A DNA stretch of 64,000 bases from an uncultured Verrucomicrobiota bacterium (lineage in GTDB: Bacteria; Verrucomicrobiota; Kiritimatiellia; CAIVKH01): contig CALMUP010000051.1 of NCBI GenBank assembly GCA_937872895.1, positions 1 through 64,000 on the forward strand, given 5' to 3'. Position numbers and translations under genes: made by a program. The notes below the pieces were generated by a model. The model saw only the letters and a program-made list of their open reading frames with translations, was not told where the DNA came from and made no database searches. Position 1 is the first letter of the stretch; the number at the start of each line of letters is the position of its first letter. Below are positions 2,177 through 7,126 of this stretch, in pieces.

Positions 2177-2776
2177 CTAGCGCTGGGCGAGGGAGCGGCG
2201 GATGAGGTCCTCGACAGGGGCGTCGGGCCCCGCCTTCTCGGCCGCCTTGCGGGCCATGGCGAGCGCGTCCTGCTGCTTGTAGCCGAGGGCAATGAGGGCC
2301 ATGACGGTGTCGCGCAGACGCACCTCCGACGGCATGGCCTCGTCGGCCCCGGCGACCGCCTCCAGCGCCTCGCCGGCGCTGATCTTGTCCTTGAGCTCGA
2401 CCACGATCCGCTCCGCCGTCTTTTTGCCGATGCCGGAAATGCCGCTGAGTCGTTTGATATCCGCCCCGACGATGCTCGCCTTGAGCTCGCGCACCGACAT
2501 GCCGCTCAACGCGGCGAGGGCGATCTTCGGACCGATGCCGCTGACCGCGAGCAACCGGTTGAACAAATCACGTTCGTCCCCGGTGGCGAAGCCGTACAGC
2601 AGGTGCGCATCCTCGCGCACATGGTGGTAGGTCAGTACCTTGACCGGTTCATCGACCATCGGCAGCCGGTCGTAGGTGCTCAACGGGATGAACACCTCGT
2701 AGCCGATGCCGCCGACGTTCACCACCGCGCGCTCGGGCTCCTTCTCGACCAACACGCCATGGACGAAGGTGATCAT
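2177..2776 (-). CDS. ruvA: Holliday junction DNA-binding protein RuvA
   Basis: RuvA forms the tetramer that clamps the four-way junction and loads RuvB. The 199-residue product has the N-terminal OB-fold (MITFVHGVLVEK...GGIGYEVFIP), a central pair of helix-hairpin-helix motifs (VSGIGPKIALAAL and ISGIGKKTAERIVVEL) and a C-terminal three-helix domain (LIALGYKQQDA) that contacts RuvB. Length matches the family. The cupin gene ends 7 bases upstream, so ruvA is probably the last tight member of the receiver-thioredoxin-cupin-ruvA run. Confidence 0.97.
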   Translation of the reverse strand: MITFVHGVLVEKEPERAVVNVGGIGYEVFIPLSTYDRLPMVDEPVKVLTYHHVREDAHLLYGFATGDERDLFNRLLAVSGIGPKIALAALSGMSVRELKASIVGADIKRLSGISGIGKKTAERIVVELKDKISAGEALEAVAGADEAMPSEVRLRDTVMALIALGYKQQDALAMARKAAEKAGPDAPVEDLIRRSLAQR

Positions 2777-2783
2777 GCGCGGA

Positions 2784-3050
2784 TCAGGCCACCTGGTAGC
2801 GCTTGCGGATCGGCTTGAGCACCCGCCAGGTGCAGGTCATGCCGACCGGGAAGGTCACGAAGTCGCCCTTGCCGAACCGGTAGGTCTCGCCGTAGGCCTC
2901 GACTTCCGCCTCGCCGTCGAGGATGTAGCACTGCTCCTCGCCGTCGTAGGACCAGTCGAAGGTCGAGACCTCCTTGGTCCACACCGGCCACGAGAACACC
3001 CCCATCGCGATCAACTGGTCATCGGTCTTCTTTTCCACCAAAACGTCCAT
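2784..3050 (-). CDS. Small single-domain cupin protein
   Basis: An 88-residue protein that is almost entirely one cupin barrel of the Cupin_3 (DUF861) type. Visible hallmarks are WSYDGEEQCYILDGEAEV (cupin motif 1) and GDFVTFPVGMTCTWRVL (motif 2). Members of this group are often annotated as 'ethanolamine utilization EutQ-like' or simply cupin, and the substrate cannot be inferred. It sits between the thioredoxin gene (19 bases upstream) and ruvA (7 bases downstream), suggesting one transcript without implying a shared function. Confidence 0.85.
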   Translation of the reverse strand: MDVLVEKKTDDQLIAMGVFSWPVWTKEVSTFDWSYDGEEQCYILDGEAEVEAYGETYRFGKGDFVTFPVGMTCTWRVLKPIRKRYQVA

Positions 3051-3069: not shown

Positions 3070-3534
3070 TCAGGGCGCAGCCTTCCCGAGTTGTTGTTCG
3101 ATCCATTGCACCAGCGATTCCTTGCGCATCGCCCCTTCGTGCACCCCCACCGCCTGTCCGCCGCGAAACAGCATCAGCGTCGGCAAGGCGCGCACCTGGA
3201 ACCGCTGGGCCAGCCCTTGGGCGTCGTCGGTATTGACCTTGACCACGCGCAGGGTGTCGGCCTGTTGGGTGGCGACCTCCGTGAGGATCGGTTCCATGAA
3301 CCGGCAGGGCGGGCACCAGGAGGCCCAGAAATCGACCAGCACCGGCGTCTCCGCGGCGAGCACGAGCTGGTTGAACTCGGCATCGGTCACGGCATGGCGG
3401 ATCGGCGACGCGGCGGCGTCACCGGTTGCGGCGGCGGCCGGTGCGGCCGGCGGTTCCTGGCGCGAGCAGGCGGCGATCGCCAACGCGGCGATCGTCGTGC
3501 AGAAAAGACGGATGGATAACAGGGATTTCGTCAT
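3070..3534 (-). CDS. Lipoprotein thioredoxin
   Basis: A 154-residue thioredoxin-fold protein with a lipoprotein signal: positively charged MTKSLLSIR, a hydrophobic stretch and a lipobox-like LAIAAC followed by SRQE. A Pro/Ala-rich linker follows, then the thioredoxin domain with LVDFWASWCPPCRFMEPIL (redox centre WCPPC, compared with WCGPC in classical thioredoxin) and the cis-proline region VRALPTLMLFRGG. It is expected to act as a membrane-anchored oxidoreductase outside the cytoplasm. The CPPC centre is more usual in TlpA/ResA-like thiol-disulfide proteins than in cytosolic TrxA. Confidence 0.9.
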   Translation of the reverse strand: MTKSLLSIRLFCTTIAALAIAACSRQEPPAAPAAAATGDAAASPIRHAVTDAEFNQLVLAAETPVLVDFWASWCPPCRFMEPILTEVATQQADTLRVVKVNTDDAQGLAQRFQVRALPTLMLFRGGQAVGVHEGAMRKESLVQWIEQQLGKAAP

Positions 3535-3982: not shown

Positions 3983-4024
3983 AAAAACGAAAAGCAGCCG
4001 CGTTCCGAACGGAACGCCGGCTGC
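3983..4024 (-). terminator. Rho-independent terminator of the small basic gene
   Basis: On the minus strand, GCAGCCGGCGTTCCG loops back onto CGGAACGCGGCTGC (positions 4024-3994), followed by a T-rich run (the A-rich stretch 3983-3993 on the plus strand). This is a textbook intrinsic terminator placed about 35 bases after the stop of the 38-residue basic protein at 4059-4175, and it supports that gene being a separate transcription unit. Confidence 0.9.
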
Positions 4025-4058
4025 CTTGTGTACCGAACGAAGCCTGGGTCAGGCGGTC

Positions 4059-4175
4059 TTAGGCGCTCTTGGCCGGGGCCTTGGTTTTCTTGGCCTCGTT
4101 CCGACGCTGTTTCAGACGCTTGACGCGGCGCAGACGCGCAGCACGCTTAACACGAACTCGAAGATTTTGTCCCAT
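4059..4175 (-). CDS. Very small, highly basic protein (38 residues)
   Basis: A 38-codon frame from ATG 4175 to TAA 4059 encodes MGQNLRVRVKRAARLRRVKR at its start and ends KKTKAPAKSA. About half of the residues are Arg or Lys, and a helical leucine/valine spacing is visible. It is followed by a strong terminator and stands alone between repeat DNA and the receiver gene, so it looks like a real expressed gene rather than a chance frame. The composition resembles small ribosomal proteins (bL34, bS21, Thx types) or a nucleic-acid chaperone, but I do not recognise the family. It is short enough for automatic gene callers to miss. Confidence 0.7.
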   Translation of the reverse strand: MGQNLRVRVKRAARLRRVKRLKQRRNEAKKTKAPAKSA

Positions 4176-4259
4176 AGTGGCGCGGAGATTAGTCACACCC
4201 CACCCGCTCGTCAATCCCACAATTTACCCCCCTGCCCCCCTTCCCCGGTCACCCTGACC

Positions 4260-4925
4260 CGCCACCTCCCCTCTTCCTTGAACGTTGAATGTTGGAAGTT
4301 GAAAGTTGAAAGTTGGAAGTTCGCCCGCCAACGCCGCCCCCGCCTCCCATCCGCGGTTCAATCTCTCTGCGTCATCAGCGAACTCGGCGGTTCCTCCACT
4401 CCGCTCGCCCCCTCGCCCTTGAAAGTTGGAAGTTGAACGTTGGAAGTTGGAAGTTGGAAGTTGGAAGTTGAAAATTCGCCCGCCAACGCCGCCCCCGCCT
4501 CCCATCCGCGTTCATCCGCGCCATCCGCGGTTCAATCTCTCTGCGTCCTCAGCGAACTCAGCGGTTCCTCCACCCCACTCGCCCACCTAACCGCCCGCTT
4601 CACCGGAACCCCCGACCCGACCCGCCCCCCACACGCCCCGGCTCTCAACGCAAAGCCGCCAAGGCGCAAAGGCGAAGAACCGAAAAAGCATCAGCCGCTT
4701 CCATGATTGAATGTTGGCTGTTGCATGTTGCATGTTGTCCGCCAAAGGCGGATCCACCTCTCCTCCCCATCTGCGCATTCAGCGGTTCCTACACCCCGCT
4801 TGTCCACTTAACCGCCCCCCTTCACCGGACACCCTTACCGCCACCTCCCCTCTTCCTTGAACGTTGGAAGTTGGAAGTTGAATGTTGGAAGTTGAACGTT
4901 GTCCGCCAAAGGCGGATCTGTCACG
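4260..4925. repeat. Mosaic of short interspersed repeats (no gene)
   Basis: Two phrase types alternate. One is a near-tandem run of GTTGGAAGTTGAA-like 7-mers and 13-mers (4278-4321, 4420-4475, 4700-4740, 4858-4905). The other is the ATCCGCGGTTCAATCTCTCT phrase followed by GCGTCCTCAGCG and CGGTTCCTCCAC (4340-4410, 4497-4580, 4765-4800). A third phrase, AACGCAAAGCCGCCAAGGCG, lies near 4648. About 250 bases (4497-4745) recur nearly unchanged at 6793-7040. No coding sequence is supported. Confidence 0.75.
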
Positions 4926-4929
4926 GCCG

Positions 4930-5181
4930 TTACTTCGGATTTCGCAGCGCTTCGTTGATGCGGATCAGGTTGTTGTTGATCTCCAGCACAAGAAACGCCA
5001 GGCCGCAGGTGACGACCATGAAGAGAAAGCCGAGCACCAGTCCGACGACCGCTCCGAGGAAGGCACTGCCCCCTTCCTGGGATGCCATGACGCCGCCACC
5101 GATGGTCGCACCCAGCACGACCAAGACCCCGACAACATTCAGAATGACGCTCATGAACCGAACGACGAGATGTCCCAACAT
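4930..5181 (-). CDS. Small two-helix membrane protein
   Basis: An 83-residue protein starting at ATG 5181, chosen because a strong ribosome site GGGGAGGAA lies just upstream; the frame is open further upstream but without such a site. It has two clear hydrophobic helices (about residues 10-32 and 40-66, the second GAVVGLVLGFLFMVVTCGLAFLVLE) and a short polar tail NNNLIRINEALRNPK. I do not recognise the family. It sits at the edge of the accessory region, flanked by repeat phrases on both sides. Confidence 0.75.
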   Translation of the reverse strand: MLGHLVVRFMSVILNVVGVLVVLGATIGGGVMASQEGGSAFLGAVVGLVLGFLFMVVTCGLAFLVLEINNNLIRINEALRNPK

Positions 5182-5301
5182 GTGTATTCCTCCCCGGGAT
5201 GTTTGTGTGATCGGCCCCTTGATCCCCGGATCATCATCAGGACCGACGTTCAACGCAGCACGAACAGCAAACCGCACGCAGAAACCTCACCCTCAAGCTC
5301 C

Positions 5302-6669: not shown

Positions 6670-6792
6670 GCCGAAAATATACGCCATTGGCGTACTGCGT
6701 CAAGGGCTCTTAAAGGCTACCATCGTATTCAACGTCATGCATAGCAGGACCGAAACGCTGTGCTGTGCATGGACGGCGAACGGGCCACGGCC

Positions 6793-7126
6793 CCCCTCCC
6801 ATCCGCGTTCACCCGCGCCATCCGCGGTTCAATCTCTCTGCGTACTCAGCGCATTCAGCGGTTCCTCCACCCCGCTCGCCCACCTAACCGCCCGCTTCAC
6901 CGGAACCCCCGACCCGACCCGCCCCCCACACGCCCCGGCCCTCAACGCAAAGCCGCCAAGGCGCAAAGGCGAAGAACCGAAAAGACATCCGCCCCTGCAT
7001 GATTGCATGTTGAATGTTGGATGTTGAACGTTGGAAGTTGTCCGCCAAAGGCGGATCCGCCTCCCATCCGCGTTCATCCGCGCCATCCGCGGTTCAATCC
7101 TTCTGCGTCCTCAGCGAACGCAGCGG
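6793..7126. repeat. Second copy of the mosaic repeat block
   Basis: Positions 6793-7040 repeat 4497-4745 with few differences, including the same order of phrases (ATCCGCGGTTCAATCTCTCT, CCCGACCCGACCCGCCCC, GCCGCCAAGGCGCAAAGGCG, GTTGAATGTTGGATGTTG, GTCCGCCAAAGGCGGATCC). A further ATCCGCGGTTC phrase runs to about 7126. The two copies are direct repeats that enclose the genes from 4930 to 6669. Confidence 0.85.

Follow-up and report, generated by a model that had tools for sequence, protein, structure and literature searches.

The window (the whole stretch of 64,000 nucleotides analysed) carries on its minus strand a gene of 38 codons (4059..4175), with the ATG at 4175 and the stop codon at 4061-4059. 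Its product, MGQNLRVRVKRAARLRRVKRLKQRRNEAKKTKAPAKSA, is small and strongly basic (pI 12), with 16 lysine or arginine residues and one acidic residue among 38. A GTG at 4220 offers a longer in-frame start, but the alignments of relatives begin at the product of the ATG at 4175 and not at the extension. A -35 element, TTGACG (4209..4214), and a -10 element, TAATCT (4186..4191), lie upstream on the same strand with a spacer of 17 nt, the -10 element ending 10 nt before the ATG. This leaves a 5' leader predicted to be only a few nt long, in which there is no Shine-Dalgarno sequence. The pair was assigned from a promoter-pair scan and from the recurrence of TTGAC in the class, and was not listed by a stricter consensus promoter scan of the window. 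The class of the gene was taken as Kiritimatiellae from record titles.

Downstream of the stop codon, terminator scanning and folding located an intrinsic terminator at about 3983..4027 (minus strand), consisting of a hairpin with one bulge and a U-rich tail. The inner 7 bp of the stem are at 4017-4000, and the whole hairpin has one bulged G and is followed by TTTTCGTTTTT. The fold had a z of -2.5, and 3 of 200 shuffles were equally stable. The earlier note had described this terminator as perfect; a strong terminator does follow the gene, but its stem contains the bulged G.

The next gene downstream encodes a stand-alone receiver-domain protein (PF00072; 3560..3922), identified by Pfam and a homologue survey. 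It is followed on the same minus strand by genes which family matches assign to a thioredoxin-family protein (3070..3534), a cupin (2784..3050) and RuvA (2177..2776); a thioredoxin and RuvA were also found beyond the receiver gene in some other Kiritimatiellae loci. On the upstream side, a small predicted protein (4933-5193, minus strand) showed weak similarity to DUF4282 (E 0.00098, below the cut-off). Dispersed imperfect intergenic repeats occupy 4278-4934 and 6791-7099, two copies of a 206-nt unit (4494-4699 and 6791-6996) being 95% identical; in these repeats, runs of the GTTGGAAGTTGAA type adjoin CCGCCAAAGGCGGA.

The earlier note had proposed a basic protein gene of 38 codons without giving its strand, and had named loss of the frame in relatives that keep the terminator as the result that would speak against it. 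The gene proved to be real and on the minus strand, and codon comparison together with the terminator survey found the frame kept. When the window gene was compared with the 28 other class loci, 319 synonymous and 181 non-synonymous codon changes were counted in its own frame, whereas non-synonymous changes dominated in the other five frames (172 synonymous versus 346 not in the next best one); the compared pairs share ancestry, and the counts are thus of non-independent events. Against a genus-mate, dN was 0.20 and dS 1.04. Selection on the amino acids spans the core, MGQQ included. The 38-codon ORF is under in-frame purifying selection and is a genuine protein gene. A chance ORF was ruled out by selection and conservation, and the alternative that the ORF merely happens to lie in an antisense or non-coding element was rejected because mostly synonymous change was confined to the gene's own frame.

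A tblastn-type search, the kind of check suggested earlier, matched 52 of 97 relatives at E <=0.1, nearly all alignments starting from residue 1, and the 30 loci examined at full length had an ATG start and an MGQ[QN] N-terminus. Among 387 genomes of the phylum Verrucomicrobiota, 177 were matched by a profile of 28 rows (A1, which left out L030 and L021, a near copy of L020) and 306 by a profile of 46 rows (A2, which left out L013, L021, L030 and L067). The A2 matches included 246 of 310 good-quality genomes and 158 of 198 genera, and all but one of the 306 genomes held a single copy. No A2 match was found in 81 of the 387 genomes. Seventy of these missed genomes, all holding PF08213, were rechecked and yielded three divergent members of the MGKQ or MGRQ form, of which one starts at TTG. 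They scored 34 to 40 bits with a further profile, A5, whose 30 chosen rows include all three; row L099 of A5 starts at TTG. The remaining 67 gave either no match or a background signal not above about 15 bits. In both A2 and A5, L071 and L082 were trimmed to 33 residues. All of the 20 out-of-class loci, picked manually from the A1 match list, start with MGQQ. A scan of GTDB genomes with the class-form pattern MGQ[QN]LRxR[VI]K gave 12 confirmed loci with the labels Kiritimatiellae, Verrucomicrobia, Lentisphaerae and Spartobacteria, the named ones all being of Verrucomicrobiota type. The gene is kept across most of the phylum Verrucomicrobiota, nearly always in single copy. The earlier designation as lineage-specific is therefore apt at the scale of the phylum but not for anything narrower.

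The members share an N-terminal MGQQ followed by an Arg/Lys-rich helix. K/R content averages 44% over residues 1-34 in 49 loci, and an AlphaFold2 model obtained with nine sequences as input consists of a single helix over residues 3-32 (mean pLDDT 84.5). With 16 of 38 residues basic, one acidic and this helix, the window protein combines small size and a very basic character with the kind of helix or extension that could bind rRNA. In some members the conserved core is followed by a long Ala/Pro/Lys-rich C-terminal tail (L071, 2956-3258, with a product of 101 residues; L058, 3001-3318; L061, 3001-3339).

Tails of this composition would be in line with a nucleoid-associated protein or a general binder of nucleic acids, similar to histone H1 and located outside the ribosome, and Lagkouvardos et al. 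in 2014 are said to have found that a different small basic PVC protein binds DNA/RNA non-specifically. On the other hand, conservation of the core is far above that of the tails, and the median length of 34 residues across the 49 loci leaves most members without room for a tail. This is the main rival to a ribosomal role, and we consider it rather unlikely.

No credible match to the family was found in Pfam, NCBIfam or PDB sequences. Isolated weak matches of single members in Pfam/NCBIfam (Cecropin, 0.0064; Occludin_ELL, 0.041; SUIM_assoc, 0.12; MmDecMmdC, 0.034) were taken as composition artefacts, the profiles retrieved nothing from PDB chains beyond one designed peptide (E 2.6), and no homologue was found by sequence in solved ribosomes. 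The proposed protein would resemble bL38, bL37 and bTHX, which are small, basic, lineage-restricted ribosomal proteins, but the family matches no PDB chain apart from the designed peptide. The TIGR04137 protein of Chlamydiae/Verrucomicrobia, which we take to be the PVC signature protein CT421.2, is likewise small, basic and common to PVC bacteria. It has another sequence, however, and is separately encoded in the same genome (L142, contig C8, 81.8 bits), and identity with it was ruled out; the window protein has no NCBIfam match, hence none to TIGR04137 above the cut-off, and neither it nor the aligned members match TIGR04137 or PF08213. CT421.2 is described in the available part of PMC3444138.

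The closest comparison is with bS22 / mS38 (PF08213 COX24_C, NF047430), which shares with the family a length of about 30 residues, an MG start, a highly basic helix and the tendency to be missed in annotation, but has another sequence motif. Identity with bS22 was ruled out, the same genome holding a separate bS22-like gene (L032, contig C28, PF08213 25.2 bits). This short gene (1501-1590) comes straight after a long coding sequence, presumably hisG; it scored 17.2 bits against NF047430, where the cut-off is 34, and would therefore be missed by that model. The bS22 homologue L092, from another genome, retrieves bS22 relatives in the PDB. According to the available part of PMC10618245, bS22 (61% K/R) and bL38 were non-annotated ribosomal proteins revealed in the Borrelia ribosome by cryo-EM density.

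A paralogue of bS22 (mS38/AURKAIP1 family) could explain the short, basic, MG-starting sequence, and in an hhalign comparison with the bS22 profile the score was 14.6, as against 9.3 (sd 2.1) for column-shuffled profiles, 3 of 200 of which reached it. The hhalign probability was nevertheless only 11.5%, the shared Met-Gly start probably supplies part of the score, and none of 28 A1 members or 46 A2 members matched PF08213 at E up to 1. The profile similarity to bS22 is suggestive only. Across the 387 genomes, 206 held both the family and PF08213, 100 only the family, 70 only PF08213 and 11 neither (odds ratio 0.32). This apparent exclusion was traced largely to weak sensitivity of PF08213, since a bS22 profile for Verrucomicrobiota recovered bS22 from 34 of 40 tested genomes among the 100 where only the family had been detected. 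With a genuine bS22 encoded separately in the same genome, descent as a bS22 paralogue appears improbable.

The expression signals were compared in a class set of 29 loci (with the window gene, without L021) and in the 20 out-of-class loci. Of the 29 class loci, 23 had TTGAC 36-40 nt ahead of the ATG, and 18 had a -35/-10 pair with the -10 element ending 8-14 nt before the ATG (mean 0.6, maximum 3, in 200 mononucleotide shuffles). An extended -10, TGNTA, at -25 to -14 was present in 20 of 29, the window's own promoter not being among them. In 28 of 29, a test for short motifs detected nothing resembling a Shine-Dalgarno sequence. Outside the class, the promoter spacing was found in 0 of 20 loci and an SD-like motif in 9 of 20. 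Since the class promoter sits at a fixed distance from the ATG, the Kiritimatiellae mRNA should be almost leaderless, its 5' leader being predicted at just a few nt. Akkermansia muciniphila, of the same phylum, is counted among SD-scarce organisms in the available part of PMC10783764, and missing SD sequences are therefore not odd in the phylum.

In the class, 15 of 29 genes were followed by hairpin-plus-T-tract signals, a modest excess over the 6-10 in five sets of dinucleotide shuffles; outside the class, 18 of 20 genes were, with 4-7 in the shuffles. A stricter scan for perfect stems detected such signals at 21 of 49 loci, versus 3.0 in shuffles, and missed the bulged stem of the window. 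Together, the fixed class promoter and the terminator-like hairpins point to a separate transcription unit.

The genes upstream differ between loci, and the neighbours are not ribosomal-protein operons. A tRNA-Cys gene lies directly downstream in 2 of the 49 loci scanned, an adjacency that looks incidental. A receiver homologue on the same strand, 10-517 nt past the stop, was present at 16 of 29 class loci and at 0 of 20 loci outside the class, and the link may stem from co-transcription in some species. This arrangement, with the window's terminator between the two genes, would suit a leader peptide that uses the terminator to control the receiver gene by attenuation. In contrast, 13 of 29 class loci and all of the 20 others lacked a receiver homologue, and the selection described above bears on the amino acids of the core, MGQQ included. 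Attenuation of this kind is very improbable.

A single-copy, phylum-wide, Arg/Lys-rich lone helix most resembles, by analogy, the small lineage-restricted ribosomal proteins. Purifying selection, the promoter-like site of its own and, often, a terminator of its own also speak for such a role. Against it, no homologue in a solved ribosome is recognisable by sequence, the gene does not neighbour ribosomal-protein operons, 81 of 387 genomes are without an A2 match (although 3 of the 70 rechecked held divergent members), an unusual pattern for a core component of the ribosome, and low-complexity basic sequence suits other nucleic-acid roles equally. We put the chances at about even that the protein is a ribosomal or ribosome-assembly (rRNA-binding) protein of Verrucomicrobiota. 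The earlier suggestion of a ribosome- or nucleoid-associated protein fits the evidence in so far as the protein is probably RNA-binding or ribosome-associated. Some other small RNA-binding function, as an RNA chaperone, assembly or hibernation factor, draws on the same physico-chemical evidence, and a stoichiometric ribosomal protein and a transient binder would look alike in these data; the strong, constitutive-looking class promoter, however, suggests high steady expression, and we assign this function a low probability.

If the protein is ribosomal, a strong housekeeping promoter would in Kiritimatiellae give a short, nearly leaderless mRNA, from which the peptide would be produced in ribosome-like amounts. 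Its basic helix might then occupy a groove of the rRNA, as that of bS22 does in other phyla, presumably at a different rRNA site because bS22 is encoded in the same genome as well. It is conceivable, although we advance this only tentatively, that besides bS22 and the TIGR04137 protein the ribosomes of Verrucomicrobiota contain one more protein, of about 30-38 residues and hitherto undescribed; in Kiritimatiellae its mRNA would be near-leaderless, and the state of the ribosome itself might influence how that mRNA is translated.

A literature search, outside which most subscription journals lay, returned no description of the family and no ribosome structure for the phylum Verrucomicrobiota, and a search with four of its N-terminal peptides returned no paper. 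The gene encodes a small basic protein that is lineage-restricted and probably ribosomal, without a family in Pfam-A or NCBIfam. It represents a phylum-wide family missed by the profile libraries and directly checkable in cultured Verrucomicrobiota. Should it be ribosomal, the ribosome parts list of a major bacterial phylum would change, and the gene would offer a clean example of a conserved near-leaderless housekeeping gene.
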